The notes under the pieces are model-generated. The model was not told the DNA's origin. It made no database searches and was given only the letters and a program-made list of their open reading frames with translations. This document shows positions 19,479 through 35,600 of a DNA stretch of 60,063 nt, piece by piece. Within the stretch, counting starts at the first letter, position 1. Each line of letters opens with the position of its first letter. The translations under genes and the position numbers were made by a program. This stretch comes from Myxococcales bacterium FL481 (lineage in GTDB: Bacteria; Myxococcota_A; Polyangia; Nannocystales; Nannocystaceae), in the NCBI GenBank assembly GCA_006508105.1, contig QKPP01000322.1, positions 1 through 60,063 on the forward strand, read 5' to 3'.

Positions 19479-20783
19479 TTGAGCACACCCAAAAAATCCG
19501 GAAAAGACCTCAGCGCACTGAAGGCGCGCCTCGCCAAGAAGACCGGGCAAGCCCCGCTTGGTGGACGGCCGGCCGCCTCACCGCTCTCGCCACCCTCGCC
19601 ACCCGCGGCCGCGCAGCCTCCGGCTCCCGCGAGCCCTCCGGTCGCGGCTCCGCCCGAGCCGGTTGCTACGCCGCCGGTCGACCCGCCACCGCCCGCCGCC
19701 GCCGAGCTCGCGGCTCCGGATCCGCTGGCCGCCCCCGAGGCTCCTGCGGCCCCCCGGCCCGAGCCCCCAGCCCCGGCCGCACCGCCATCGACCCCAGCCG
19801 CGCCGGATCTCGCTCCCGCAGGTCTGGCGGCGGGCAAGGCCGCGGCCGGAGGTGGCGAAGCGCCCTTTGGCGGTGGTGCGGCGTTTGATCCCGACGCGGG
19901 TCTCATTGCGGATGCGGGCGTGGACGTCGCGCCGCGCAAGTCCACCGGCCTGATCGCCTTGGTGGCCGCGGCTTCCTTGTGCCTTGGCGCCGCGTTCGGC
20001 TGGCTCGGTCGCAACATTTCCGACACGAACGCTCGCATCGACAGTGCGAAGCGCAAGGGCGCCGAGATGGCGGCGGAGGTCGGCAAGGTCAAAGACCGGC
20101 GCTCGCGCATCTCGCTCGGCATCCAGGATGTCGAAGGCAAGCTCGCAGCAGATCCGGCCAAAGGCGCGGCCGCGCTCGCCGAGCTGGTCACGTCGAACCT
20201 CAAGGACTTCCCGCGCGCGGACGCGCTGTTCGGGTGGCAGCTGGCTTCGATGCACCCGCAGTCGATCGGCTCGGTGTTCAAGCTGTACGAAGAGGCCAAC
20301 GGCCTCGCGCTCGACCTGCCGTATCTCGCTCAGTACGTCAACCTCAATGCCGCCGCGCTGAGGCAGGGGATGGCCGGGCCGCGTCGCTTCGCCGTCCGCG
20401 TCAAAGAGAAAGAGCATCAAGCGGTGCTCGTGGAGCACGTCGCAGACATCTGCAATCTCGAAGAGAAAACGCCGTGCGAGCCCGGCCAAGCCGCCAAGGC
20501 GGTGGGTCACTCGATCCGCGAGGCCATCGGCGGGGCGGAAGTCGTGCTCCCCAAAGAGGAAGTCATCCCGCTCACTCCTCGTGGCTTGGTCTTCAAGTAC
20601 GCCATCGGCGACAAGCCCGAAACCAACGCCGCCACGCAGTACAGCCGGTTGTTGACCAAGGTCAAAGCCCGGCTCGAGGAAATGAACAAGTACGAGAAAC
20701 GGGCCGAGAAGGCGCTTGAGCAGTACGCCCAAAGCCCGACGGTGAACGCTGACACGGCGCAGCCCGATCCCGGTGACGGCTAG
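19479..20783 (+). CDS. Single-pass membrane protein with Pro/Ala-rich N-terminus, upstream of PBP1A
   Basis: A 434-residue protein. The TTG at 19479 is preceded by GGGGGA at a good distance and lies downstream of the promoter; an earlier TTG at 19404 would fall inside the promoter. Residues 1-30 are basic (STPKKSGKD, ARLAKKTG), ~30-125 are Pro/Ala low complexity, a transmembrane helix lies at about 155-178, and the C-terminal ~250 residues are helical with a coiled-coil start and a partly alpha/beta body. A basic cytoplasmic tail and an external C-terminal domain are inferred. It overlaps the penicillin-binding protein gene by 11 bp, so a role alongside that enzyme is likely. I do not recognise a family. 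Confidence 0.75.
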   Translation: MSTPKKSGKDLSALKARLAKKTGQAPLGGRPAASPLSPPSPPAAAQPPAPASPPVAAPPEPVATPPVDPPPPAAAELAAPDPLAAPEAPAAPRPEPPAPAAPPSTPAAPDLAPAGLAAGKAAAGGGEAPFGGGAAFDPDAGLIADAGVDVAPRKSTGLIALVAAASLCLGAAFGWLGRNISDTNARIDSAKRKGAEMAAEVGKVKDRRSRISLGIQDVEGKLAADPAKGAAALAELVTSNLKDFPRADALFGWQLASMHPQSIGSVFKLYEEANGLALDLPYLAQYVNLNAAALRQGMAGPRRFAVRVKEKEHQAVLVEHVADICNLEEKTPCEPGQAAKAVGHSIREAIGGAEVVLPKEEVIPLTPRGLVFKYAIGDKPETNAATQYSRLLTKVKARLEEMNKYEKRAEKALEQYAQSPTVNADTAQPDPGDG

Positions 20784-23184
20784 TCGGCAGCTGCTCGTTC
20801 GCAATCCGGCAAAAGCCAGCCTTCTCGGCTGGCTTTTGCGTTACTACGCCTTCGCCGCTGCGGTGGCCCTGGTCGGTCTGTTGTTCGTGGGCCGCTCGGC
20901 GTACCGCTACTTCGCGAAGGATCTGCCGAGCATCGCCGAGATCGATCGGTTTCGTGCCACGGCGCCTGGCATTACCCGCATCGTGGCCGCCGACGGGACG
21001 TTGCTGGCGGAGTTCGCTCGTGAGCGGCGGATCTACGTCTCCATCGACGAGGTGCCGGCGCCTCTGCAACAGGCGTTCTTGGCGGCCGAGGACCGTCGCT
21101 TCTTCGAGCACGCCGGCCTCGATTGGCGCGGTTTAGCCCGAGCGATGGTGACCAACCTGCGCGAGGGAACGGTCCGCCAGGGGGGGTCGACGATCACTCA
21201 GCAGGTAGCCAAGGGGTTTTTGTCCCATGAGCGCACCCTCGCTCGAAAGGTCCGAGAAGCCATCTTGTCGCTGCGCATGGAGTCGCAGCTCGGCAAGGCC
21301 AAGATTTTCGAGATCTACATCAACAAGATCTTTCTCGGCCAGGGTGCGTACGGGGTCGCGGCGGCGGCCGAGCGCTACTTCGACAAGCCGCTGGCCGAGC
21401 TGACATTGGCCGAATCGGCTCTCATCGCGGGGTTGGCTCGGGCGCCGAGTCGGTACAGCCCGTCGCGTAGCGTCGATGTGGCCCGGGCCCGTCGCGCGGT
21501 GGTGCTGCAAGACATGGTGGAGGCGGGCTACATCGACGACGCGAGCCGGGCGGCGGCGGACGCAGAGCCGATTCGACTCGCCGAGCATCGTGACCCGTTT
21601 CGCTGGCGCGCGCCGTACTACGCCGAAGAGGCGCGGCGTCACTTGTCGCAGGTACTCGGCCCCGATGTGGTTTTGGACGGCGGGCTGACCATCGAAACCG
21701 CGGTGGACCTGCAATCGCAGGCGGCCGCGAGAGAGTCGGTGGATCGCGCGGCGCGGCGGCTGGACAAGCGTCAGGGCTGGCGCGGTCCTGTGCGGCACCT
21801 GCGGCGCGAGGCGGATCGAGTGGAGTTTCTGGCTCGCACCGCCCGCGAGTACGGTGAACGCGTGCGCGACGAAGATCGGCTGTTTCTCGGCCTCGTCACC
21901 GCCGTCGAGCGCCGACGAGCAGAGGTGAGGGTGGGCACCCTGCTCACCACCCTGCGACTGCGCAAGATGCGATGGGCGGCTCCCTACGACCGCAACAGCG
22001 AGATCAACGACGTGCAGATCGAGCGCAGCGATCGGGCACTGGAGGTGGGCGATGTCATCTGGGTGCGACCGTTTCGTCGAGAGTCGCGGCCGGACGTGCT
22101 CGAGGTGGCTCTGGAGCAAACTCCACGCGTCGAGGCGGCCTTGTACATGGTTGATCACGAAACCGGATACGTGGAGGCCATGGTGGGGGGGCACGATTAC
22201 GATCGCTCGCAGTACAACCGCACAACCCAGGCCTGCCGTCAGCCCGGATCCGTGTTCAAAGCGATTTACTACGCCTTGGCCCTCGACACACCGCGGTGGT
22301 CGATGGACTCGATTCTGGAGGGCAAGCCATGGGAGCCGACGGACGGCGAGACTTGGAGTCCGCAGAACATCGATAAGACGATTGATGGCAAGGTGTTGCT
22401 ACGCACCGCGTTCATCAAGTCCCTCAACACCGCGTCGCTGCGACTGTTTCTGAAGCTGGGGGCGCCGGAGGTGTTGGCTTGGTCGCAACGGTTGGGCATC
22501 AAAAGCGAGCTGATCCCTGACAAGGCGTTGGCACTCGGAGCCTCCTGCACCCGTACCGACGAGCTGCTGCGAGCCTTCGGTGTGTTCGTCCGGGGCGGTA
22601 AGACTTCGCCCACCCACTACGTGCGACGGGCCACGGACTCGGAGGGCGAGGTGGTGCTCGACCAGCGTCACCCCGCCGATCCGGAGCTCGACGTCGGGAG
22701 TCGTCTCGACCGGCTGGCCGCCCGTGCGTTGCAGCCGGCGGAGCAGGTCATCGATGAGACGACGGCGTTTCTGATCACCCGCATGCTCCGCGAGGTCGTC
22801 ACGCACGGGATCGGGTCTGGAGCTCAGCGGATCGGCGTGCCGGCGGCAGGCAAGAGCGGGACCGCGTCGAAAGGCACGTACACCACCGATACGTGGTTTA
22901 TGGGCTTCACCTCGCGATATCTCACGTCGGCGTGGATGGGAGACGACAAATACGAGCGGTCGTTAGGCGAACGCGATGCGAGCTACACCACGGCCACCCC
23001 GTTGTGGGCGGACTTCATGGCGAAGATCGTCAAAGCGGGCGATCGCCCGCATGGGCAGCTGCCGCTGTACCGGCCGCCAGGGATCACCGTCAAAGTCGTG
23101 GACGCCACCCGCGGTGGTCCGCCCATCCCCGGTCTGCCCCAAGCCACGGTCTACTACCGACGGGGGGCGGCCGGATCCCGCTAG
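20773..23184 (+). CDS. Class A penicillin-binding protein (PBP1A type)
   Basis: An 803-residue bifunctional peptidoglycan synthase. After one transmembrane helix (about residues 22-45) comes the GT51 glycosyltransferase domain with AAEDRRFFEHAG (catalytic Glu106) and GGSTITQQVAKG, then an OB-like insert and a transpeptidase domain with SVFK (Ser493, Lys496), SLN (Ser550-Asn552) and KSGTAS (from Lys694). It polymerises glycan strands and cross-links peptides at the outer face of the inner membrane. The GTG at 20773 overlaps the previous gene; it lacks a clear ribosome binding site and the first codons contain a terminator-like hairpin, so a later TTG (20836) is possible but would shorten the cytoplasmic tail. 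Confidence 0.95.
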   Translation: MTASRQLLVRNPAKASLLGWLLRYYAFAAAVALVGLLFVGRSAYRYFAKDLPSIAEIDRFRATAPGITRIVAADGTLLAEFARERRIYVSIDEVPAPLQQAFLAAEDRRFFEHAGLDWRGLARAMVTNLREGTVRQGGSTITQQVAKGFLSHERTLARKVREAILSLRMESQLGKAKIFEIYINKIFLGQGAYGVAAAAERYFDKPLAELTLAESALIAGLARAPSRYSPSRSVDVARARRAVVLQDMVEAGYIDDASRAAADAEPIRLAEHRDPFRWRAPYYAEEARRHLSQVLGPDVVLDGGLTIETAVDLQSQAAARESVDRAARRLDKRQGWRGPVRHLRREADRVEFLARTAREYGERVRDEDRLFLGLVTAVERRRAEVRVGTLLTTLRLRKMRWAAPYDRNSEINDVQIERSDRALEVGDVIWVRPFRRESRPDVLEVALEQTPRVEAALYMVDHETGYVEAMVGGHDYDRSQYNRTTQACRQPGSVFKAIYYALALDTPRWSMDSILEGKPWEPTDGETWSPQNIDKTIDGKVLLRTAFIKSLNTASLRLFLKLGAPEVLAWSQRLGIKSELIPDKALALGASCTRTDELLRAFGVFVRGGKTSPTHYVRRATDSEGEVVLDQRHPADPELDVGSRLDRLAARALQPAEQVIDETTAFLITRMLREVVTHGIGSGAQRIGVPAAGKSGTASKGTYTTDTWFMGFTSRYLTSAWMGDDKYERSLGERDASYTTATPLWADFMAKIVKAGDRPHGQLPLYRPPGITVKVVDATRGGPPIPGLPQATVYYRRGAAGSR
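20809..20839 (+). terminator. Intrinsic-terminator-like hairpin at the 5' end of the PBP1A gene
   Basis: A perfect 13-bp stem (left arm 20809-20821, right arm 20827-20839) with a 5-base loop TTCTC. The core is AAAAGCCAGCC / GGCTGGCTTTT, the form of a bidirectional Rho-independent terminator with a short T-tract. It lies 25 bp after the stop of the preceding gene but inside the predicted first codons of the PBP1A gene, so it may attenuate read-through into the synthase. Confidence 0.6.
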
Positions 23185-23229: not shown

Positions 23230-23278
23230 CGCCGAACTATCGCCGAACTATCGCCGAACTATCGCCGAACTATCGCCG
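23230..23278. repeat. 11-bp tandem repeat at a convergent gene junction
   Basis: Four exact copies of CGCCGAACTAT (23230-23240, 23241-23251, 23252-23262, 23263-23273) and a partial fifth. The stop codon of the leftward gluzincin gene (23270-23272) falls in the last full copy. The unit is not a multiple of three, and the array otherwise lies between the convergent ends of two genes, so it is not protein-coding. Confidence 0.92.
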
Positions 23279-24931
23279 GGGGGCCGCTGGGTCGCGCCGA
23301 AGGTCGACGGGGTCGCCCGACATCCACGCGGGCAGTTGGCCGCGCAGCGGACAGTGTGCGAGTTCCGATTGGCGCCGTGTTTCATCAGTGGCGAGCACGG
23401 CGAGGTCGCAGTGCAGCATCGGGATGAAGGGGTTCTTCTGCACCGCCCGATCGGCCGGATCCCGCGCCGCGTCCTCCTGCCCGGTCATCAGCGCCGCACG
23501 GGCCTGGGCCTCGGCGAGGTTGGCATTGCGCGGGTCGTGCTTCGCGGCGACGTCTAGCAGGGGCGCCGCACGGTGGGCCTGGCCGAGCTCGAGCCACAGC
23601 TCGCCGAGGCGTCGCGCGAGCTTGGGATCGCGAGCCGCCTTGGCGCTGGCCTGGCGTGCCTTTTCGTACTGCTCGGCCGCGGCCGCTTTGTGGTCTCGCA
23701 GGGTTAGCAACACCCCGAGCCGAGCGTGCTGTCGCGCTTTGCCCCCGCCGAGATGCGAGAACACGTCGCCGAGCAGGGACGGGTCGACGCCATCGTCTCC
23801 GTCCTCGGAGAACCGCAGCGTCTCGACGTCGCCGCCTTCGCTATCGGCGGTGGCCCGCGTCATCCGTTCTTTCCAGCGCTGGTAGAAGTCGTCGAAGTCC
23901 GTGCCCCAAGCGACGCCGAGCGCATCCTCGGCTCGTTCGCCGTCGGTGACCCGGTCGATCAACGTGGTCAGTCCCACTTCCCCCCGTTCTTCCAAGAGCA
24001 TGCCGAGCATGGTTTCGACCTCCACGTAGGCCAGGGTCGCTCGTTCTTGGCTGGGTAGCATGGCGATCGACGGCTGCATCTCATCGAGCGTGACGAGGTC
24101 GTCGTTGACCAAGGCCCGATGCAACAACGCGGCCCGCGGGGGATCGAGCGGCTGGGGGACCGCGGCTCGCCACCGCGTTTCAAAGAGCTTGGCCAGGCCC
24201 TCCTGCAGCCACACGGGGGCTCGATTGCGTGTGCGAAGGGTCACGAGATAGTGCACGTACTCGTGCACGGCGGTGTCGATCCAGGCGTAGCCGTAGAGCA
24301 TGACCCGGGGGGTCACCATCATGATCCGCTGGTACTTTGTGACGCCCACGGTGCCCGTGGTGTAGATGTTGTCGAGCGACAGCGGGGTAATCTGCGCCAG
24401 TTTGGATGGCGCGTCGAGGAACTCGAAGCGAATGGGTCCCTGCGGACGGACCCCGAGATCTGCGCCGAGGTCGCGATAGGCCAGTTCCATGGCATCGAAG
24501 AGGTACGGCGCGAGCAGTTGGTCTTTGGCGTCGGCGAAGACGGCCTCGAAGCGCCCGTTGTCGCTGTGCACGACGATGGGGTCGGCGAGAGAGCTTCGCG
24601 CACCACGGGCGAGCGCCAAGAAACGTTCGGCGCGGGGCACTTCGCGCTCGTCGAGCGTCCCGCTGGCTAACAGGCTCGCCAGGGTGGTCTCGACGAGTTC
24701 ATACTTCGCCTCATAAAACGCCAGGATCGCGGCTCGCAGCTCGCGGGCGCCCCGATCGCGTACCGTGGTCAGTACGTCCCGGGCGTTGTCCAGGTCCCAT
24801 GCGTCCAAGTCCGCCTCGAAGGCTGCGATCGCGGCATCGTCGAGGACGTTACCGGCGCGCGCGGGCGTCGGATCGGCGCCCGGCAGGCCGACCAAGCTGA
24901 GTACGGCGAGGGCCCAACGCAAGCGCCTCAT
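23270..24931 (-). CDS. Exported gluzincin metallopeptidase (peptidase MA-like) with TPR tail
   Basis: A 553-residue protein with an N-terminal signal sequence cleaved near ARAG (residue 27). The zinc motif HEYVH is at 223-227, followed by WLQEGLAKLFE, whose Glu is the expected third zinc ligand, as in peptidase MA-type enzymes. The N-terminal ~110 residues and the C-terminal ~170 residues are helical repeat regions of TPR character (ARRLGELWLELGQAHRAAPL). It is probably periplasmic or exported. Its ATG overlaps the stop of the DUF4175 gene (ATGA), so it is the second gene of that operon and is likely to act with it. Substrate unknown. Confidence 0.82.
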   Translation of the reverse strand: MRRLRWALAVLSLVGLPGADPTPARAGNVLDDAAIAAFEADLDAWDLDNARDVLTTVRDRGARELRAAILAFYEAKYELVETTLASLLASGTLDEREVPRAERFLALARGARSSLADPIVVHSDNGRFEAVFADAKDQLLAPYLFDAMELAYRDLGADLGVRPQGPIRFEFLDAPSKLAQITPLSLDNIYTTGTVGVTKYQRIMMVTPRVMLYGYAWIDTAVHEYVHYLVTLRTRNRAPVWLQEGLAKLFETRWRAAVPQPLDPPRAALLHRALVNDDLVTLDEMQPSIAMLPSQERATLAYVEVETMLGMLLEERGEVGLTTLIDRVTDGERAEDALGVAWGTDFDDFYQRWKERMTRATADSEGGDVETLRFSEDGDDGVDPSLLGDVFSHLGGGKARQHARLGVLLTLRDHKAAAAEQYEKARQASAKAARDPKLARRLGELWLELGQAHRAAPLLDVAAKHDPRNANLAEAQARAALMTGQEDAARDPADRAVQKNPFIPMLHCDLAVLATDETRRQSELAHCPLRGQLPAWMSGDPVDLRRDPAAPRR

Positions 24932-27900
24932 TGCAGCAACTCCTCATAGTAGCGCTCAATTGGCTCGTCGTAGCCATCGGGCGGGTTTTCCCGCATCGCT
25001 TCCATCAATGCGTCGCGCAGCGATCGGTCTCGCTCCGCCTCGGTCGAGGCCTCCTGGGCCCGCTGCGGGGGCGGCGGGGGCGGATTGCTGCGACGCAGGC
25101 TCTCGATGGCTCGCTCGATTCCCTCCACGGCGTCCCGGCTGGCCTCGCCGGCGCCGATTGGGTCGGTCGTGCCGAACGCCCCCGCGGCGTCTCGCATGGC
25201 CCGACCGGCCATTCGCAACGCGCTCTGGCCCGGCGGGGGCAGCAGATCACCCGCCGGTGAACGTTGCGCCAGCTCGGACAGGCGCTGCTCCAGCGAGCGC
25301 TGACCCTCAGCGGCAGACTGCGAGCGCTCGCGTTGGTCAGCGGGCAACGCCGCGGCGGGTTGGGGCAGCGCGCGGAACAAGGCGGCTTGCGTGGCCCGGA
25401 CACGCCGCAGCAGACGCTCGAGGGCCTTGGCTTCGCGCTCCCCGGACTCTGCGCCAGCGCGGGCTTGCTCTAGACCGCGACGAGCCAGCCGAGCGGCGTC
25501 GAACAGCGCGAGCGGATCGGGGGCGTCGGTGTCCGCCAGGCGCTCCAATGCTTCGAGCTGCGCTCGCGCGTCTTCGTAGCCGCGCCGACCCTCGCGGCCC
25601 AACCGGGCGTCGTTGATCGCCTCGAGCGACCGCAGAGACGCTCTCGCTCGCGTGTCTGCGCCGCGTTCGGCCGAGAGATCGGTTTCTTCTACCAGCTCCC
25701 GCCAGCGCCGTTCGAGGCCCGAGGACTCGCGCGTGAGCTGGGTTTGATCGTCTTTGAGCCGGCTCAGTCCGCGGAGCAACTCCATCCGCGCCCGTTCCTC
25801 GGGGGACAGTCGGGCGTCCTCGTCCGACGCCGCCCGCTGACCGACCGCGTCCCGCAGCTGCCCGATCTGGTCGAGGGTCTCTCGCGCCGCCCTCAGCGCA
25901 TCTTCGGTGTCTCCCCGCTCCAAGCTCCCTCGCAGGTTCTGCTGCTTGAGCCGGTCCTCGATGGCCTTGAACGCGTCGAGGTTCATGTACTCGTCCCCCA
26001 CCTCCTTGCGGAGACGGGCGCGGGCGGAGGAAACGCGGCGCATGTCTTCGCGGATGCGTTGCTCGAGTTGGTCGATTTGTTCGCGTACGGACTCGTCCCC
26101 GGCCGCCAGCTTCTCGAGCAGTTCCAGCAGCTTTTGCTGCGACGCTTGCAGCCGTGCGAGCAAGCGCTCAAGGTCGGCCACGATCTGACCGTCCACCAGA
26201 TCGTCGAGGCGAATGATGTCGTCCTCGAGCTGGCTCACCTCACGCGGATTGTGGCGGGCGATCCGTTGCAGGAGCTTGGGGATCTCGCTGGGTCGGGTGG
26301 CCTCGCCTCCCGGCGGCAGTTGCTCGTGCAACGCACTTTCGGCGCGGTGCAGCTCATAGAGACGGCGATGCACCTCGATGAGAATCCTGACTTCGCGAGG
26401 CGGGACCATGCGATCGAGTGCCAGCGCGTCGACGGTATCGCTGATCCGGGTCAACAGCCCCTGCGCGAGCAGATGGATGTGTCTCGCTTCACCCAACAGC
26501 GCGTGCCGACGCGCGACATCGGCCTCGGCCGGGCGGGTGGTAAACGGTGCGGCGGTCATGCGCAGGGCCAACATGTCGACGGCACGATCTCGGATGCCGC
26601 GCAGACTCTCTACGTTGCGCGCATGCTCGCTCTCTTCGTCGCGGACCAGCAGTTTGTGCCGGGCGGATCGCACGACTTTGCCCGGCGGGTCGGGCAGCGG
26701 CACCAATCCTAGCCCCGGATCGTTGTCGCGGATTTCGATGAAGTACGTCAGCTCGCCACGGCGGTCGATGGGTACCGCGGCCAGGTCCCAGGTGGTGCGC
26801 TGCTGCCAGGCCCGGCGGCCTTCGCCGTCGCCGGCGGGGAGGCGGCGGCGCGTGCCATCGGCGAGCTCGTACACCAACGTCGCCGCTCCCAGCCCGAAGT
26901 CGTCTCGGGCGCGAAACCGGAGATCGATGCGATCGATCTCCGTCGGTTCGCGTTGGTCGGCGGGCAACGGCAAAAGCTCGAGCTCGGGGGGATTGTCGGG
27001 CTCGAGCTCCAAGCGGGCCGGAGGGGAGGTCGCGCGGGCCGTGGCTCCCTGGTCGTCGGCTTCGTCGAACAGCGCAACAGTCCACACGCCGGAGCTGCGC
27101 AGCACGAACGACCCCTGCCACCGCTGGTCCGCGGCTGGGGTCAACGTCACGACCGTGGGGGCTGGGGCTTGGCTGGGTTCCGGCGCGTCGTAGTTGACCA
27201 CGAGGCGGGCGACGTCGGCCGGTTCCGTCAGTCGCACATCGAGTGCGACGAGTGTGCCCGCCGGAGCGCGAAGGGCCCCGCTCGGGTTGGGGATCTGTCG
27301 GGGCGGTCGTCGCGTGTGCTCCGGATAGGTCAGCTCGACCTGAAGGGAAGACCAAATGGGAGTTGGCGGCCGGGGCGGGCGGCCGTCGACGCCGGAGCGT
27401 AGGCGATCCCACGCGAGCCGGCCCGCGGACGTCGCCGTCAAGCCGGCGGGCACGGCCACGGCCAAGAGCATCGCCACGGCCATCCGAGCCACCGGCAGCG
27501 GACGTACGAGGCTCTGCGGAGCCAACTTGCCCACCCGATCCGCGACACTTGAGACGTAGATCTCCGCCAGCTCCCGCGACTGCGCGGGCGGGAGAGCCTC
27601 GGGATCCTCGAGTTCCGCGGCCGCGAGGAGCTCGTCGCTCAGGCCGGGCGGTTCGGCCCGCCGCTCCCGGGCGAGCGTGCGCGCAGCGACGAGGACCGAT
27701 CGGTACTCGAGCCGCCATGCTCGCCACGACCACACCGCGACGCCCAACCCCCACGCGAGTAGGGCCGCCGTCCCCAGGTACCGCCCCAAGTCGCCGCGCG
27801 CGGTGGCCATGACCAGCGCGATCGCGCCGCCTCCGACCACCCCAACCCCGACCACGAGTCGGGCGAGGGCCACCACCACGGCTCGTCGTGCCGCCGCGAA

Positions 27901-27948
27901 GCGGACGAGGGCGAGAAACTCGGCGATGGGTGCAGGACGGGCCGGCAT
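24928..27948 (-). CDS. DUF4175-type large membrane protein with long coiled coil
   Basis: A 1006-residue protein. The first ~200 residues hold two adjacent transmembrane helices (about 25-75) and a third near 160-180. An Ig-like beta region follows (around VELTYPEHTRRPPRQ), and from about residue 430 to the end the chain is almost entirely charged helix with many Glu/Arg/Leu heptads. This layout matches DUF4175 proteins, which have no assigned function. A longer frame begins at 28149 but would overlap the divergent sigma-factor gene; Met at 27948 starts the conserved part. It is translationally coupled to the gluzincin gene. A periplasm-spanning scaffold or mechanosensing role is inference only. 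Confidence 0.8.
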   Translation of the reverse strand: MPARPAPIAEFLALVRFAAARRAVVVALARLVVGVGVVGGGAIALVMATARGDLGRYLGTAALLAWGLGVAVWSWRAWRLEYRSVLVAARTLARERRAEPPGLSDELLAAAELEDPEALPPAQSRELAEIYVSSVADRVGKLAPQSLVRPLPVARMAVAMLLAVAVPAGLTATSAGRLAWDRLRSGVDGRPPRPPTPIWSSLQVELTYPEHTRRPPRQIPNPSGALRAPAGTLVALDVRLTEPADVARLVVNYDAPEPSQAPAPTVVTLTPAADQRWQGSFVLRSSGVWTVALFDEADDQGATARATSPPARLELEPDNPPELELLPLPADQREPTEIDRIDLRFRARDDFGLGAATLVYELADGTRRRLPAGDGEGRRAWQQRTTWDLAAVPIDRRGELTYFIEIRDNDPGLGLVPLPDPPGKVVRSARHKLLVRDEESEHARNVESLRGIRDRAVDMLALRMTAAPFTTRPAEADVARRHALLGEARHIHLLAQGLLTRISDTVDALALDRMVPPREVRILIEVHRRLYELHRAESALHEQLPPGGEATRPSEIPKLLQRIARHNPREVSQLEDDIIRLDDLVDGQIVADLERLLARLQASQQKLLELLEKLAAGDESVREQIDQLEQRIREDMRRVSSARARLRKEVGDEYMNLDAFKAIEDRLKQQNLRGSLERGDTEDALRAARETLDQIGQLRDAVGQRAASDEDARLSPEERARMELLRGLSRLKDDQTQLTRESSGLERRWRELVEETDLSAERGADTRARASLRSLEAINDARLGREGRRGYEDARAQLEALERLADTDAPDPLALFDAARLARRGLEQARAGAESGEREAKALERLLRRVRATQAALFRALPQPAAALPADQRERSQSAAEGQRSLEQRLSELAQRSPAGDLLPPPGQSALRMAGRAMRDAAGAFGTTDPIGAGEASRDAVEGIERAIESLRRSNPPPPPPQRAQEASTEAERDRSLRDALMEAMRENPPDGYDEPIERYYEELLQ

Positions 27949-28090
27949 GTTCGCGCGAAGCGGAGCCTCGCTTGTCTTGGTATAACTGCCGCGTGGCCCC
28001 GCGTCACCGCTGTCGTGTTCCTCTTTCGCCGCTGCTGTTGCTGCGCGGCCGTCCGGTCCATGACGGGCGGCGCCGGAGCCCTCACGCCCC

Positions 28091-28897
28091 ATGGGTCTGA
28101 ATAGCGATTCGCCCCCAACGTCGGAGGTCTCGCAACACGTGGTCTCCACAGAATCCGACGACCAGGCCTTGGTCGATGCTTGTCGCGCCGGCGACCGGCG
28201 CGCGTTTCGGATTCTGATGGAGCGCTACCAACGCAGGATTCACGCCGTCGCTTATGGGTACCTCCGCAACCGAGAAGACGCACTGGATGTGGTGCAAGAC
28301 TGCTTCATCAAGGTGCATCAGCACCTCGACGGCTTTCGCGGTGGCTCGAGCTTTTACACCTGGCTGTACCGCGTGGTCGTCAATCGCTGCATCGACCACA
28401 TCCGTCGCCATCGCCGGCGGCGGGGGGTCGAGTACCGCGACGATCTCCGCCACGACGGCGATGCCGCGGCGGACACCGAAGCTGACCAGCGTATCGTGCA
28501 GGCGGGGAGCCCGGCGGCCATGCTTCAGCGCAAAGAGATCTTGGGCGCGGTGCAAGAGTGTCTGGTCCATCTCAGCGACACCCACCGCGACATCATCATC
28601 ATGCGGGAGCTCGAAGGGATGACCTACGAGGAGATGGCCGAGGCGATGCAGTGTGCCAAGGGCACCGTGATGAGTCGTTTGTTCCACGCTCGCAAGAATC
28701 TGCAGAAGCTCTTGGCGCAGCGGCTGGAGCTCGCGCCGTCGGCGGAAACGGCTTCGGCGGGGAGAGGGGCGGTCGAGGCAGACTCGGGTCGCGCTGCGCC
28801 CGGTCCGAAGCCGAATCGCAAGCCGAGTCACAAGCCCGACCGGAAGCCCGACCGAAAGCCCGACCGAAAGCCCGACCGAAAGGTAGTCGCACCATGA
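28091..28897 (+). CDS. ECF-family RNA polymerase sigma factor
   Basis: A 268-residue sigma-70 family factor. Region 2 is recognisable in ALVDACRAGDRRAFRILMER and DALDVVQDCFIKVHQHLDGFRG with the FYTWLYRVVVNRCID segment; region 4 reads RDIIIMRELEGMTYEEMAEA and GTVMSRLFHARKNL, the promoter-recognition helix-turn-helix. No region 1.1 or 3 is present. It carries an unusual C-terminal extension of about 55 residues ending in Lys-Pro-Asp-Arg repeats. It is divergent from the DUF4175 gene and its stop overlaps the start of an anti-sigma-like gene (ATGA). This arrangement usually means autoregulation with the partner; no duplicated promoter motif could be confirmed by eye. Confidence 0.92.
   Translation: MGLNSDSPPTSEVSQHVVSTESDDQALVDACRAGDRRAFRILMERYQRRIHAVAYGYLRNREDALDVVQDCFIKVHQHLDGFRGGSSFYTWLYRVVVNRCIDHIRRHRRRRGVEYRDDLRHDGDAAADTEADQRIVQAGSPAAMLQRKEILGAVQECLVHLSDTHRDIIIMRELEGMTYEEMAEAMQCAKGTVMSRLFHARKNLQKLLAQRLELAPSAETASAGRGAVEADSGRAAPGPKPNRKPSHKPDRKPDRKPDRKPDRKVVAP
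28808..28882 (+). repeat. 12-bp tandem repeat at the 3' end of the sigma-factor gene
   Basis: Six 12-bp units from 28808, the last three exact copies of AAGCCCGACCGA and the first three degenerate. In frame they encode Lys-Pro-Asp-Arg (earlier Lys-Pro-Asn-Arg, Lys-Pro-Ser-His), a basic tail beyond the last conserved sigma helix. Confidence 0.92.
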
Positions 28898-29502
28898 ACG
28901 CACGCGACGAACGCCTGATGGCGTACCACGACGGTGAGCTCAGCGAGCCGGACCGCGTGGCGTTTGAACGTGAGATGGCCGGCGATCCGCAGCTGCGTGA
29001 GCAGTTGAGCGCGCTCGAGACCACCCGGGCTTTGGTGGTGGGTGAGGCCCTGCGCGAGGCGGACGATGTGCCGCAGGCCCGATTCGAACAAATCTGGGAT
29101 CAAGTCGACCGGGAACTCGATGCGCCGGCCGAGGCCGTCGCCCCCGTGGCGCCCGCCAACCGCTGGTGGCGGTGGCTCCCACTAGCGGCTGCGGCCGCGG
29201 CTGCGGGGGCGGTCCTGGTGATCTGGCCCCGAGGGCAGGAACCGACGTCCGCGTCGGAGCTGCCGCCGGCGATCGCGTCGACCCCGTCGACCCCGAGCGA
29301 GCCCGCGGTCGCTCAGGCTCCGCCGCCGCCGGCTGCCCCCACCGCCGACGAGCCCGCAGACCACCGCGGGGTAGACATCGAACGCATTGAGTTTGCCGGA
29401 CGGTCAGGGCGGATCGATCACATCGATGACGCCCGCGGAACGACGACCGTTATCTGGATCGAAGAAGACCCTCAACCTGTCACCAGCGAGCGTTCGCTAT
29501 GA
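28894..29502 (+). CDS. Membrane-anchored anti-sigma-factor-like protein
   Basis: A 202-residue protein starting within the stop of the sigma gene (ATGA), the typical place for a cognate anti-sigma factor. The N-terminus (DERLMAYHDGELSEPDRVAF) has the shape of the anti-sigma helical domain but lacks the His-x3-Cys-x2-Cys zinc motif. A transmembrane helix follows WWRWLP at about residues 92-110, then a Pro/Ala stretch and a short acidic external domain. The inferred role is to hold the sigma factor at the membrane until an envelope signal arrives. The role is inferred from position and shape rather than from a diagnostic motif. Confidence 0.78.
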   Translation: MNARDERLMAYHDGELSEPDRVAFEREMAGDPQLREQLSALETTRALVVGEALREADDVPQARFEQIWDQVDRELDAPAEAVAPVAPANRWWRWLPLAAAAAAAGAVLVIWPRGQEPTSASELPPAIASTPSTPSEPAVAQAPPPPAAPTADEPADHRGVDIERIEFAGRSGRIDHIDDARGTTTVIWIEEDPQPVTSERSL

Positions 29503-30020
29503 CCCAGTCATCTCTAGTTCAGCGCCTGGTATTGGGCCTCTCCTTGGCCTTCGTGGCTTCGCCGGCGGCGGTGGCTGCCGCCGACGGCACGGTCCACGCG
29601 GCGCCGGCGGCCAAGCCCGCGCCGAAGAACCAGGCGACCTGCCGTGTCATGTCGATACTCGCCAAGAAGGAGGGCGACGGGTCGGTGCCCAAAAACCTGG
29701 CCGCGCTCGAGGCCCAGCTGCGCAGCGATCAGTTCGCCGCGTTCAAGTCGTTTCGGTTGATCGAGGAGAAGGCGATGAGGGTCAACGACGCCGCCGACAC
29801 GTCGTTGGCCATGAAGATGGGCTACGAGGTGCGACTGCGCTTGCTCGCCGCGCCCGCGAGGCGGCTCAAGCTACATCTGGGCCTGACGAGTAAGGGGGCG
29901 GCGAAGCCTCTACTCGACGCCGACTACTCCGTGGCGGAAGGCGGTGTGTTGCTGGTCGTGGCGGGGCAGAGGGATGGGGGACGAGCGTTGTTCGCGTTCC
30001 AGTGTCGTCGCGCCGATTGA
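29499..30020 (+). CDS. Small exported protein, third gene of the sigma operon
   Basis: A 173-residue protein with a signal sequence (hydrophobic stretch ending AAVAAAD) and a compact mature domain. It starts inside the stop of the anti-sigma-like gene (ATGA), so all three genes are translationally coupled. A conserved-looking element is AALEAQLRSDQFAAFKSF, followed by several beta strands and a C-terminal single Cys (FQCRR) that could pair with the Cys near residue 48. I do not recognise a family. Its place suggests it is a periplasmic partner or sensor for the anti-sigma protein. Confidence 0.75.
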   Translation: MTQSSLVQRLVLGLSLAFVASPAAVAAADGTVHAAPAAKPAPKNQATCRVMSILAKKEGDGSVPKNLAALEAQLRSDQFAAFKSFRLIEEKAMRVNDAADTSLAMKMGYEVRLRLLAAPARRLKLHLGLTSKGAAKPLLDADYSVAEGGVLLVVAGQRDGGRALFAFQCRRAD

Positions 30021-30181: not shown

Positions 30182-32503
30182 ATGCGCCGTGTGTCGAGCA
30201 TCGCTAACAAGGGGCGTTCGCGCTGGATTCGAGTCTTGTTGTTCGGCGGGCTACTGTGCACTGTGCTGGGCGCGGGCGTTTGGGCCTATCCGTACTGGGC
30301 GGCTCCGTTGTTGCGCTCACAGCTGCAGGAGCGAATGGCCCGGCGGGACCTGGAGTTCACCGTCGACGATCTGACGCTCACGCACGGGCGCGTGCGACTG
30401 GACGGCATGCACGTGCGGCAAGCCGACGTCGAGTTGCGCCTCGAGCGAGTCGACGTCGCGTTCTCCCGCCCGGGTTGGTTCTCCACGGAGGTGGATGTCG
30501 AATCGGTGCGGGCGGTGGGCGGGCGCCTGAGCGGATCGGTGGCCACGGTCCGGGAGATGGCCCAGCCTCGGACTGCCGACCCAGCGTCCGGCCCCTCGCC
30601 CGCGACCGGCCGTTCCGTTTCGCTCGTGCCGAGGAACGTGGAGGTCCGAGATCTCGCTTTGTCGCTCTCTCGCGAGGCGGGTCAGCCCGTCCAGTTCGAG
30701 GCGCAGCTCACGTTCACCGGTGACGCGCGGCGCCGCGAAGGAACGGTCACGCTGCGTGACCTCAGCGCCGAGGTTGCGGCGGGGCGACGAGTCGCTGCGG
30801 CGGAAGTCCAAACGGACCTCGCACGCGACGAGGCGGGCGGGATCGCGTTCCCGCTGCGGCTGCGCGTCGCGGGGGGCAACACATCGATCTCGCCCACCAT
30901 CGCGGTCGCCGATGTCTCCGGTGAGATCCAGCTGCTCGATCGAGACATCTCGGCCCTGCGCGTCGACCTCTCCGGCGGATTCGGAGAATCTGGTGCGGGG
31001 CGTTTGGGGGCGAACAAGCTTTGGTCGGTGCAGGGGGAGCTGGCGCGAGACCTGACTCGCGGACGGGTCGAGCTCGAGATGGAGGCGTTCGCGTTGGGAA
31101 AGATTCCGGAGGTGCTTGCTCGGCTGCCCCTCGTCGCATCGGAGCAAGCGACCGTGGGAGGGCGTTTGGCGGTCGACTTCGCCGACGGCAAAGCGGACTT
31201 GGCCGGCGAGCTTGCGATCGCGGGGCTCCACGTCAGTCACCCGACGCTGGCGCCGGGCGTGGTGCGCAACGTTGGCTTCTCGGCCGACTTGCGGGCGCGC
31301 CTCGACCCGGCTGCGCGCAAACTTACGGTCGAGCACGCGATTTTGTCCCGTCAGGGCGTTTCACTGGCGCTCGAAGGGGAGTTTGTCCACACCGAGGCCG
31401 TGGAAACCCGTCGCTACCGGCTGCGAGCCCACACCGCCAAAACGCCGTGCCAAGAGGTCTTGGATGCGATCCCCCAAGAGCTGGTACCGAGTCTGGTCGG
31501 CTTTCGCCTTGGCGGCACGTTTGAGCTCGACCTCGAGGCCGACATTTCCTACGCCGACTTGGATGCGGCTACCATCGGTGGCAAAGTCGACCTGCGGCGC
31601 TGTCGGGTTCGCAAGGTGCCCGCGCGGGTGTCGGCCAATCGTCTCGCCGGAGGCTTCTCGCATCGAGTGGTGATGCTCGATGGGAGCGAGCGAATCGTGC
31701 GGTTGTATCCGGGGGCCCCCTCTTACACGGCGCTGAGCGACATCTCGCCCAATATGGTGGCTGCGGTGCTCACCACTGAAGACGGCGGGTTTTGGCGCCA
31801 CTCGGGATTTTTGACCTCTCAGTTTTCCGAGGCGATGCGTCGCAACCTCAAAGCCGGTCGAATCCGCTTGGGGGCGTCGACGATCACGATGCAAATGGTC
31901 AAAAACGTGCTGCTGAGCCACGAACGGACGTTCTCGCGGAAACTCCAAGAGCTGTTTTTGACTTGGTACGTCGAGCGAACGCTATCCAAAGAGCGAATCA
32001 TGGAGATTTACCTCAACGTGATCGAGTTTGGGCCAGGGGTGTATGGGGTGACGCACGCCGCGTCGCACTACTTCGGCAAGACGCCGCAACAGCTCAATTC
32101 TCTCGAAGCCGCCTACCTCGCCTTGATGCTGCCGTCCCCGGTGCGTCGCCACGTGCACTACTGCAAAGGCGAACCGAGTCGGCGCTTCGATGCCAAGCTG
32201 CGGCGGATCCACGAGATCATGCACTCGCGCGGGCATATCGACGATCTCGAGTTTTTCCTGTGGAACTCGGGCACGGTCTCGTTCGACGATCGCGACCGAC
32301 AAAGCGAGGCCGCTTGCTTGCGCGAGATCGATCGCCTCCTCGAGGGGACGCATCGACAGCGGGCGGTGTCGGGTTTGCTCGAAGGCGATCACGTCCCTGA
32401 GGACGACGGCCCGCCGGCTTGGCTCGACGACTCGGGCCTCGAACTGTACGACGACGATCCGTCTGCGTCAGATGCGCCGGGTCGGCCCGCGATGGATGGC
32501 TAG
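30182..32503 (+). CDS. GT51 peptidoglycan glycosyltransferase fused to an AsmA-like N-terminal domain
   Basis: A 773-residue protein. A transmembrane helix at about residues 17-38 is followed by ~430 residues of repetitive beta-rich sequence resembling AsmA-family proteins (for example LTLTHGRVRLDGMHVRQADV). A GT51 domain follows, from about residue 500: TTEDGGFWRHSGF with catalytic Glu533, GASTITMQMVKN, and MEIYLNVIEFG with Glu608. No transpeptidase motifs are present, so it makes glycan but does not cross-link. AsmA-like domains are associated with phospholipid movement across the periplasm; joining this to a lipid II polymerase is unusual. It is preceded by a 160-bp gap and reads toward trmH. 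The GT51 call is firm, the AsmA call moderate. Confidence 0.88.
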   Translation: MRRVSSIANKGRSRWIRVLLFGGLLCTVLGAGVWAYPYWAAPLLRSQLQERMARRDLEFTVDDLTLTHGRVRLDGMHVRQADVELRLERVDVAFSRPGWFSTEVDVESVRAVGGRLSGSVATVREMAQPRTADPASGPSPATGRSVSLVPRNVEVRDLALSLSREAGQPVQFEAQLTFTGDARRREGTVTLRDLSAEVAAGRRVAAAEVQTDLARDEAGGIAFPLRLRVAGGNTSISPTIAVADVSGEIQLLDRDISALRVDLSGGFGESGAGRLGANKLWSVQGELARDLTRGRVELEMEAFALGKIPEVLARLPLVASEQATVGGRLAVDFADGKADLAGELAIAGLHVSHPTLAPGVVRNVGFSADLRARLDPAARKLTVEHAILSRQGVSLALEGEFVHTEAVETRRYRLRAHTAKTPCQEVLDAIPQELVPSLVGFRLGGTFELDLEADISYADLDAATIGGKVDLRRCRVRKVPARVSANRLAGGFSHRVVMLDGSERIVRLYPGAPSYTALSDISPNMVAAVLTTEDGGFWRHSGFLTSQFSEAMRRNLKAGRIRLGASTITMQMVKNVLLSHERTFSRKLQELFLTWYVERTLSKERIMEIYLNVIEFGPGVYGVTHAASHYFGKTPQQLNSLEAAYLALMLPSPVRRHVHYCKGEPSRRFDAKLRRIHEIMHSRGHIDDLEFFLWNSGTVSFDDRDRQSEAACLREIDRLLEGTHRQRAVSGLLEGDHVPEDDGPPAWLDDSGLELYDDDPSASDAPGRPAMDG

Positions 32504-32568: not shown

Positions 32569-33285
32569 ATGCTTGACCATCCCACCACCGAGCGGATCTT
32601 GGCCGAACTCGGCGCCGAACGGATCGTCGAGACGCTTGCGCCCTACCTCAGCGAGCATCGCCGCGAGCGTATCGAAGCAGCACTACGCGGGCGCGTGAGC
32701 GGGGTGCACGTGGCCGTCGAAGAGCCCTACGATCCGCACAACGCCGCCGCGGTGGTGCGCAGCGTCGAGGCCTTCGGGGCGGCGGGAGTCCACGTGATCC
32801 GGGCCTCGGAACGGGTGCTGGCGTCCCGCCGCACGACCCAAGGCGCGTTCCACTGGGTCGAGCGGGGAAGCTTCGCCGCACTCGAAGAGTTCTTCGCCGC
32901 CATGCATCAGCGCGGCCTACGAGTCTACGGGGGGGCCATGGACGGCGAGTTGACGTTGGATGGCCTGCCGGTCGTCGCTCCGATTTGCCTGTTGTTTGGC
33001 AATGAGCATCGCGGCCTGTCCGCAGCGGCGCGCGCTCGATGCGACGGTTTGTACCGGATTCCGATGTTCGGGTTTTCGGAGAGCCTGAACCTGTCCGTGT
33101 CCGCGGCCGTCAGCTTGTACGACGTGCTCCGCCGGCGACGGGCCCACGTGGGCCGAGACAGCGATTTGGAGCCCGAGGAATACCGCGTCGAGCGAGCGCG
33201 TTGTTACTTGCGCGCTGTCGATCCACGATTTGCTGTCGGGCTGGTCGCGCAGACCAAGCGTAGCGGCCCCGTCGACTCCCCATGA
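32569..33285 (+). CDS. trmH: SpoU-family RNA 2'-O-methyltransferase (TrmH-like)
   Basis: A 238-residue SPOUT methyltransferase that uses S-adenosylmethionine to methylate a ribose 2'-OH. The three family motifs are visible: DPHNAAAVVRSVEAFG, LLFGNEHRGLS, and FGFSESLNLSVSAAVSLYD. The C-terminal extension (RCYLRAVDPRFA) and overall size fit TrmH, which modifies G18 of tRNA. An upstream frame from 32419 overlaps the previous gene; Met at 32569 starts the conserved part. The stop TGA overlaps the ATG of the downstream penicillin-binding protein, so the two are co-expressed although their jobs are unrelated. The exact tRNA target is inferred. Confidence 0.88.
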   Translation: MLDHPTTERILAELGAERIVETLAPYLSEHRRERIEAALRGRVSGVHVAVEEPYDPHNAAAVVRSVEAFGAAGVHVIRASERVLASRRTTQGAFHWVERGSFAALEEFFAAMHQRGLRVYGGAMDGELTLDGLPVVAPICLLFGNEHRGLSAAARARCDGLYRIPMFGFSESLNLSVSAAVSLYDVLRRRRAHVGRDSDLEPEEYRVERARCYLRAVDPRFAVGLVAQTKRSGPVDSP

Positions 33286-35600
33286 CGTCACGAAAGCCGC
33301 GCCGGACCAGAATGTGGACGATCGTGTGGATCGTCGCGGCCAGCGGCCTGGCGCTCGCGATGCTAGCGGTCGCCGCCGTCGCCTACCTGTTTTGGCACTA
33401 TGGCCGGGATCTCGCGTCGCTCGACCAAACGGCGTTTCGCAACTACCGTCCGGCGCAGGTGACCCGGGTATTGGCGCGGGACGGCACGGTCATCGGCGAG
33501 TTGTTCGAGCAGCGCCGGACCGTCGTGTCCCACGACCAGATTCCAGCCCATGTCGAGAACGCGTTCTTGGCCGCCGAGGATGCAAGGTTTTACGAACACG
33601 CGGGGATGGACGTACTGGGCATGGTGCGGGCGCTTGTCGCCAACGTGCAAAAGGGTCGGGTGACCCAAGGGGCGTCGACCATCACCCAGCAGGTGGTGAA
33701 AAACTTCGCGTTGTCGCCCGAGCGAACTCTCGAACGCAAGGTACAAGAGATCATCTTGGCTCGTCGGCTCGAAGGCCTGCTGACCAAACGCGAGATTTTG
33801 GAGCTCTATCTCAACGACATCTACTTCGGGCACGGGCGCTACGGGGTCGAAGAAGCCGCGCGCTTTTTTTTCCACCGCTCGATTGGCGAGGTCGATCTCG
33901 GGCAGGCGGCATTGCTCGCCGCGTTGCCGAAGGCCCCGAGCAAGACGTCGCCGTTGCGCGATCCGCAGCGAGCGAAGGCGCGACAGATCTACGTCTTGCG
34001 CCAGATGGTCCGACACGGCTTTGCCTCGGAGGCGGAGGCGCAGGCCGCCATTGCGGCTCCCCTCCCGCTGGCGAGCGACGCTCGCGAGTCCCGAACCGTG
34101 GCGGACGCGGACGAGTTCGTCGACGTGGTCGCCGAAACCCTACGGGAGCGCTACGGCGACCGAGTGGCCACCCTCGGCGCGACGGTGACCACCACCGTCG
34201 ATCTCGATCTGCAGCGGGCAGCGAGGCGAGCGGTGCGGACCGGATTGACCGAAGTCGACGCGCGCCGGCGAGTGGTTCGCAGTCTCACGCCCGCCGCCGC
34301 CGGCCGGCGCGATCGACTGTTGTCGCGAGACCGCGTGAAATGGACCCCGGGGCGACTCGTCGATGCGGTCGTGCTCGAGCAGGACGAGTCTGCCGACACG
34401 ATCGTCGTCGGCGTCGGGCCGGTCCGCGCTCGGGTGCACGTGCCAGTGGGCCGCTACCATGATGCGGACCGCCCGCTGGCCGAGCAGTTTCCCACCGGAT
34501 CGATCACTCGCGTGGAGCCGCTGGAGGACGACGATCATGGTTCGCGGGCCCAACTCGAGCGGGGACCCGAGGGCCTGGTGGTATTGCTCGAAGCGGAGTC
34601 AGGAGAAGTCGCCGCGATGATCGGGGGGGACACCTATCGTCGGGCGCAGTTCAACCGAGTGTTGGCCGCGAAGCGTCAGCCGGGGTCGGCCTTCAAGCCC
34701 CTCGTCTACGGGGCGGCGCTGGCGAGCCGCCAGTTCACGGCGGCAAGCATCGTCGCCGATTCGCCGGAGATCTACGAGAAATGGCGACCGACCAACTTCG
34801 AGCGCCACGAGTACCGCGGCAAGATGCGCGTTCGCGAGGCGCTGACTCACTCGGTCAACACGGTAGCGATCAAACTGCTCGATGCCATTGGACCTCAGGC
34901 CGTTCACGAGTTCGCGTACGCGGCCGGCATTCAGTCGGAGTTGGTTGACGATCTTTCGCTGGCCCTCGGCACTTCGGAAGTCACGCCCATCGAGCTGGCG
35001 GAGGCCTACCTGACCGTGGCGCGCGGCGGGTCACGGCGCTCTCCGACCTTCATTCGCAAGATCGAGGTTCCCGGGGGGACCGACTGGACGCCGCCTGACC
35101 AGGCGCATCCTGGCATCGATCCCGACGTGGCGTTTGTGTTGACCAGCATGATGACCAGCGTGGTGGGAGAGGGCACGGGACGGCGCGCGAAAGCGCTGGG
35201 GCGTCCGGTGGCTGGCAAGACGGGGACGTCCGCGGATCACCGCGACGCGTGGTTTGGCGGGTTCACCCGCGATCACGTGGCGTTGGCCTGGGTGGGCTTT
35301 GATCGGCCGCGTCGGATCGGACGGCGTGAGACTGGGGCGCGTGCAGCCCTCCCGATCTGGCTGGCGACGATGCGGGCGGCCAGCGACGGGCAGCCGATCC
35401 GCGGATTCGTGCCGCCGCCGACCGTGGACGTGCGCACCATCGACGCCGTGTCGGGTCTGCTCGCCGGCGCGCCACGACCGAGTGGTGGTCCGACGGGCGC
35501 CACTGTCGAGGAGTTCTTCATCGCGGGCACCGCTCCGGTCGAGACCGCTGCCCCGACGTCGACCCCCCATGGCGACCTGGTACTAGATCTCTACGAGTAG
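33282..35600 (+). CDS. Class A penicillin-binding protein (PBP1A type), second copy
   Basis: A 772-residue bifunctional synthase with one N-terminal transmembrane helix (about residues 12-35). The GT51 domain has AAEDARFYEHAG (Glu99) and GASTITQQVVKN; the transpeptidase has GSAFKPL (Ser469, Lys472), SVN (from Ser524) and KTGTSAD (from Lys646). Compared with the first copy in this window (20773-23184) it has the orthodox KTG motif and a different, shorter insert, so the two are paralogues rather than a recent duplication. The ATG overlaps the trmH stop (ATGA). It acts at the periplasmic face of the inner membrane. Confidence 0.95.
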   Translation: MTSRKPRRTRMWTIVWIVAASGLALAMLAVAAVAYLFWHYGRDLASLDQTAFRNYRPAQVTRVLARDGTVIGELFEQRRTVVSHDQIPAHVENAFLAAEDARFYEHAGMDVLGMVRALVANVQKGRVTQGASTITQQVVKNFALSPERTLERKVQEIILARRLEGLLTKREILELYLNDIYFGHGRYGVEEAARFFFHRSIGEVDLGQAALLAALPKAPSKTSPLRDPQRAKARQIYVLRQMVRHGFASEAEAQAAIAAPLPLASDARESRTVADADEFVDVVAETLRERYGDRVATLGATVTTTVDLDLQRAARRAVRTGLTEVDARRRVVRSLTPAAAGRRDRLLSRDRVKWTPGRLVDAVVLEQDESADTIVVGVGPVRARVHVPVGRYHDADRPLAEQFPTGSITRVEPLEDDDHGSRAQLERGPEGLVVLLEAESGEVAAMIGGDTYRRAQFNRVLAAKRQPGSAFKPLVYGAALASRQFTAASIVADSPEIYEKWRPTNFERHEYRGKMRVREALTHSVNTVAIKLLDAIGPQAVHEFAYAAGIQSELVDDLSLALGTSEVTPIELAEAYLTVARGGSRRSPTFIRKIEVPGGTDWTPPDQAHPGIDPDVAFVLTSMMTSVVGEGTGRRAKALGRPVAGKTGTSADHRDAWFGGFTRDHVALAWVGFDRPRRIGRRETGARAALPIWLATMRAASDGQPIRGFVPPPTVDVRTIDAVSGLLAGAPRPSGGPTGATVEEFFIAGTAPVETAAPTSTPHGDLVLDLYE

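Follow-up and report, generated by a model that had tools for sequence, protein, structure and literature searches.

The window that we analyzed is a 60,063-nucleotide stretch of DNA from Myxococcales bacterium FL481 (Nannocystaceae; contig QKPP01000322.1, positions 1–60,063 of the forward strand), in which a single uninterrupted ORF on the plus strand (30182..32503; ORF calling and translation) encodes P0001, a protein of 773 amino acids. One chain carries a membrane helix, then ∼460 residues of predicted AsmA-type β-groove, and then a GT51 peptidoglycan glycosyltransferase domain. The membrane anchor (residues 14–34; 30221..30283, plus strand) is apparent from the sequence and is a helix in the AlphaFold model, and the basic residues that precede it would, by the positive-inside rule, leave the N-terminus inside the cell and the C-terminal part in the periplasm. 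The AsmA-type module, delimited by Pfam, profile, and structure-model evidence, follows at residues 36–510 (30287..31711, plus strand), and the GT51 domain at residues 514–664 (31721..32173, plus strand). The chain ends in a disordered acidic tail (32384..32500, plus strand; pLDDT < 50), which closes with a DPxxxDAPGxPAMD-like motif; the family alignment shows this motif in most Nannocystaceae homologs, and it is possibly a docking peptide. For the whole chain of P0001, AlphaFold with a family alignment of 17 rows reached pLDDT 79 and pTM 0.64. A sequence-only reading of the same DNA had placed an anchor, AsmA-like sequence, and a complete GT51 domain in one chain devoid of transpeptidase motifs; the ORF, Pfam, and AlphaFold results agree with this layout, and the transpeptidase domain (PF00905) had no Pfam match in P0001.

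Gene neighborhood of the fusion

The fusion gene lies in a plus-strand cluster whose first gene encodes an ECF sigma factor (28091..28897), followed by an anti-sigma factor with a partial zf-HC2 match and a membrane helix (28912..29502) and by a 173-residue protein with an N-terminal hydrophobic segment (29499..30020). This order, from the ECF sigma factor to the fusion, is kept in 17 Nannocystaceae-type loci, and an ECF sigma factor gene is also found upstream of the fusion in further families and at loci L071–L073 and L075–L079. The 173-residue protein matches no Pfam family, and its place between the anti-sigma and fusion genes is conserved beyond the 17 loci as well. Downstream, Pfam and neighborhood comparison identified a gene for a SpoU-type RNA methyltransferase (32569..33285, plus strand), and the next gene (33282..35600, plus strand) encodes a bifunctional class A PBP of the PBP1A family (TIGR02074: 565.8 bits, cutoff 508.75). 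A class A PBP gene lies downstream of the fusion at most Nannocystaceae-type loci that extend far enough, often with the methyltransferase gene in between. This conserved gene order suggests that the fusion and the bifunctional PBP are jointly regulated as a cell-wall module. The ECF promoter motif GGAAC-N-GTC was not found upstream of the sigma factor gene, either in the window or at 13 loci.

Other genes of the window deserve mention. A third GT51 gene (20773..23184) encodes another bifunctional class A PBP, and three of the four GT51 genes of the genome are located within 15 kb. Two minus-strand genes adjoin the ECF sigma factor gene in several relatives: one for a 1073-residue membrane and coiled-coil-like protein with no clear Pfam family (24928..28149), and one for a protein bearing a metalloprotease-like HEYVH motif (23270..24931).

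The GT51 domain and the AsmA-type module

PF00912 matched residues 514–664 of P0001 far above its cutoff (E = 1e-48; 165.6 bits vs. 27), and both sequence and fold searches of the PDB matched this part to Aquifex PBP1A and S. aureus MGT. Motifs I–IV of GT51 are all present. The first catalytic Glu, E533 in motif I (EDGGFWRHSG; 31778..31780, plus strand), aligns with E233 of E. coli PBP1b, which is the general base (PMC8119973); the second, E590 in motif III (RKLQE; 31949..31951, plus strand), aligns with PBP1b E290, termed catalytic (PMC7400108), and its position 57 residues past motif I is shared by 67 of 68 relatives. The sequence-only reading had named residues 533 and 608 as the catalytic pair: E533 holds, but E608 is the Glu of motif IV, aligned with PBP1b E308 and with a Thr in MtgA, and was rejected in favor of E590. 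The 68 relatives are fusion frames from other Myxococcota, defined as single frames in which GT51 lies well away from the start and a transpeptidase signature is absent; a pattern scan found motifs I–III intact in every one of them, and the 12 frames that failed the motif IV pattern all keep its ExYLN core. P0001 scored 159.5 bits with the MtgA model TIGR02070, below the equivalog cutoff of 182.65. As it passes no NCBIfam model cutoff, we saw no NCBIfam model dedicated to the fusion.

Kinship with AsmA was tested blind, by comparing an N-terminal profile with all PDB chain sequences, and the sole significant match was to residues 9–156 of E. coli TamB (E = 7.6e-4). With hhalign, the first 100 residues of the profile gave in-register alignments with the N-terminal ends of AsmA, YhdP, TamB, and YicH from E. 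coli at scores of 25–30, compared with 10–21.5 for controls (unrelated proteins, MtgA, and reversed sequences); YdbH was not recovered by hhalign with this profile. Pfam matches among 41 family N-termini (E up to 0.01) were to DUF748 in 19, YhdP in 13, YdbH-like in 5, and AsmA in 4, and four relatives (L130, L148, L046, and L035) exceeded the curated DUF748 cutoff with >50 bits. P0001 alone matched no AsmA-type Pfam model, so its assignment to this type comes via its relatives.

The AlphaFold model of the N-terminal 510 residues (41 rows; pLDDT 86.5, pTM 0.75) has a second helix at residues 36–54 after the membrane helix, and then ∼20 antiparallel strands of 8–15 residues across residues 58–470, a predicted pattern that appears to fit the AsmA type. 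A fold search of the PDB with this model returned no match at E < 0.001, partly because few AsmA-type structures have been solved; the same type of search with the full model returned TamB (9xdd_B) at a probability of 0.66. An AsmA-like N-terminal region had been proposed from the sequence, with an unrelated fold as the alternative; Pfam matches in relatives, the TamB match, the hhalign register, and the strand pattern all agree with the proposal, and an unrelated fold was not borne out.

Hydropathy alternates along the strands of P0001 more strongly than in all 5000 shuffles. This fits a groove with one greasy face, as it would fit any β sheet with one buried face. Two cysteines, C423 and C474, do not vary in the family alignment and are conserved at >90% in the wider N-terminal set, which suggests a periplasmic disulfide at the end of the AsmA module; further cysteines noted in P0001 are C661 and C712.

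Distribution and ancestry of the fusion

The 24 other genomes sampled from the family each encode a homolog (E ≤ 1e-134), which is nearly full length except in one genome, where a contig end cuts it, and most sampled genomes from other families of the class have matches extending into the AsmA part. When 84,980 species genomes were scanned, the informative names among the best 80 loci were all myxobacterial or deltaproteobacterial, including Nannocystis, Enhygromyxa, Sorangium, and Polyangium, and some of these loci came from complete genomes. Because the same frame and architecture occur in dozens of independent genomes, complete ones included, the fusion in P0001 is not due to chance, and an assembly or frame artifact as its source is ruled out. 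What had been noticed in one sequence recurs in 24 of 24 other sampled family genomes and in the 68 frames, with the N-terminal part kept. Some Myxococcota genomes have, among the matches listed, only those limited to GT51, so that the fusion may not be universal in the phylum. The genome of the window also encodes a second AsmA-type/GT51 paralog (L004, on contig C79; 675 amino acids), which sits on a long branch.

Beyond Myxococcota, the architecture recurs in a protein of 652 amino acids from Parabacteroides distasonis, which is annotated as a biosynthetic peptidoglycan transglycosylase and combines an N-terminal DUF748 with a C-terminal GT51; the evidence from Bacteroidota consists of this one record in a plasmid collection. 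Its similarity to P0001 begins ∼90 residues ahead of GT51, and conservation of the AsmA module peaks beside GT51 as well (2.2 bits per residue at residues 411–510 vs. 1.55 at residues 131–220). The coincidence of the two suggests that both domains work together. A Pseudarthrobacter match (H8) was rejected as a fusion: the matched region begins near the annotated protein start, so that a long N-terminal module would not fit ahead of it.

The length of the module varies widely, from ∼420 residues in Parabacteroides to ∼870 residues in another myxobacterial group, while the GT51 part is constant. Three fusion proteins (L148, L149, and L150) reach 1047–1167 amino acids, with an AsmA-type part of ∼800–900 residues before GT51. 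Such variation is spacer-like, and it agrees, as does the concentration of conservation next to GT51, with a scaffold: a module that binds no lipid and either keeps GT51 at a set height or serves as a docking site for partners, for example PBP1A from the downstream gene or a protein of the outer membrane. However, so wide a range of lengths speaks against a fixed ruler, one face of the strands is strongly hydrophobic, and YhdP, TamB, and YdbH are tied to phospholipid transport in two studies (PMC8593681, PMC8912898). We regard a module without any lipid as somewhat unlikely, yet as an explanation to be taken seriously.

The GT51 tree separates the fusions, together with MtgA, from class A PBPs (support 100/99), with MtgA forming its own subclade and the Parabacteroides fusion falling among the fusions; how MtgA relates to the fusions depends on the position of the root. 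A topology in which the Parabacteroides fusion is sister to the MtgA of its own organism, i.e., an independent fusion, was rejected (P = 0.024), and a single clade of all fusions was not rejected (P = 0.33); the long branches present warrant caution. By these sequence comparisons, the AsmA-type/GT51 fusion is old and conserved across the phylum, and gut Bacteroidota have a relative of it.

AsmA-type proteins are believed to ferry lipids between the inner and outer membranes. Given the kinship of the N-terminal part with TamB, YhdP, and YdbH, one may ask if P0001 is a phospholipid transporter first, with GT51 as an accessory linking transport with growth of the cell wall. Three observations make this improbable: GT51 stands in place of the C-terminal part with which TamB and YdbH reach the outer membrane, its catalytic motifs are strictly kept, and its position in the tree is with dedicated polymerases.

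Proposed function and known systems

We propose that P0001 is an inner-membrane-anchored, MtgA-like monofunctional glycan polymerase mounted on an AsmA-type β-groove stalk that engages C55 lipid, and we give this reading a probability of slightly under one-half (roughly 0.47). Its GT51 domain would polymerize lipid II, and the groove, hydrophobic on one strand face, would engage, close to the enzyme, the C55 chain of either lipid II or the undecaprenyl diphosphate that is released, while the stalk would decide where in the periplasm the enzyme acts. In Nannocystaceae, the fusion probably works with the adjoining class A PBP under the ECF sigma factor, perhaps under envelope stress; as the two probably act together, the fusion would supply glycan strands and the PBP would crosslink them. 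The earlier suggestions that the protein senses or handles lipid carriers, or that synthesis is held at envelope contact sites, are compatible with this anatomy.

A more far-reaching version makes the groove a conduit through which lipid II would leave the inner membrane and reach a GT51 domain up to ∼100 Å away, with glycan polymerized at the sacculus and undecaprenyl diphosphate perhaps returned through the groove. If the ∼20 strands are stacked as in AsmA-type proteins, they would give an axial rise near 96 Å; furthermore, GT51 occupies the end at which an AsmA-type protein would be expected to hand over its lipid, and the fusion is ancient according to the GT51 tree and topology tests. To our knowledge, however, all GT51 enzymes studied act at the membrane surface via a hydrophobic jaw, and the orientation of the domains is unsure in the full model at its pTM of 0.64. 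We therefore consider such a conduit unlikely. If true, polymerization away from the inner membrane by way of a hydrophobic bridge would be a previously unknown mode of cell-wall synthesis.

The polymerase on a lipid-engaging stalk that we prefer ties together two processes that have been studied apart, lipid transport across the periplasm and cell-wall synthesis. A groove that holds the C55 carrier would mean that AsmA-type proteins do not handle phospholipids alone and that glycan synthesis is not necessarily confined to the membrane surface. Even with the module as a plain scaffold, the fusions would represent a class of glycan polymerase that is conserved across Myxococcota, has a Bacteroidota relative, and seemingly has yet to be described; databases list its members as generic transglycosylases. 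No description of an AsmA-type/GT51 fusion was found in the open literature, subscription journals and preprints lying largely outside this coverage; neither domain is new, and it is their ancient combination that seemingly has not been described.

Among known systems, P0001 resembles MtgA (TIGR02070) in having one GT51 domain, a membrane anchor, and no transpeptidase, and in a GT51 that groups apart from class A PBPs; MtgA, in contrast, has only ∼240 amino acids and no periplasmic module. With AsmA, YhdP, TamB, YdbH, and YicH (DUF748), it shares an N-terminal membrane helix followed by repeated antiparallel strands, and the profile and sequence kinship with AsmA-like proteins extends over the N-terminal 100–160 residues. 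P0001 is, however, shorter than the transport-linked members, and at its C-terminus it has a glycan polymerase in place of a part that reaches the outer membrane. Class A PBPs (PBP1A and PBP1B) have the same GT51 motifs and likely the same substrate, whereas P0001 lacks their transpeptidase domain and belongs to a separate branch of the GT51 tree. PBP1B offers a further parallel, in that a noncatalytic domain (UB2H) lies near its GT51, as the AsmA-type module does in the fusion.
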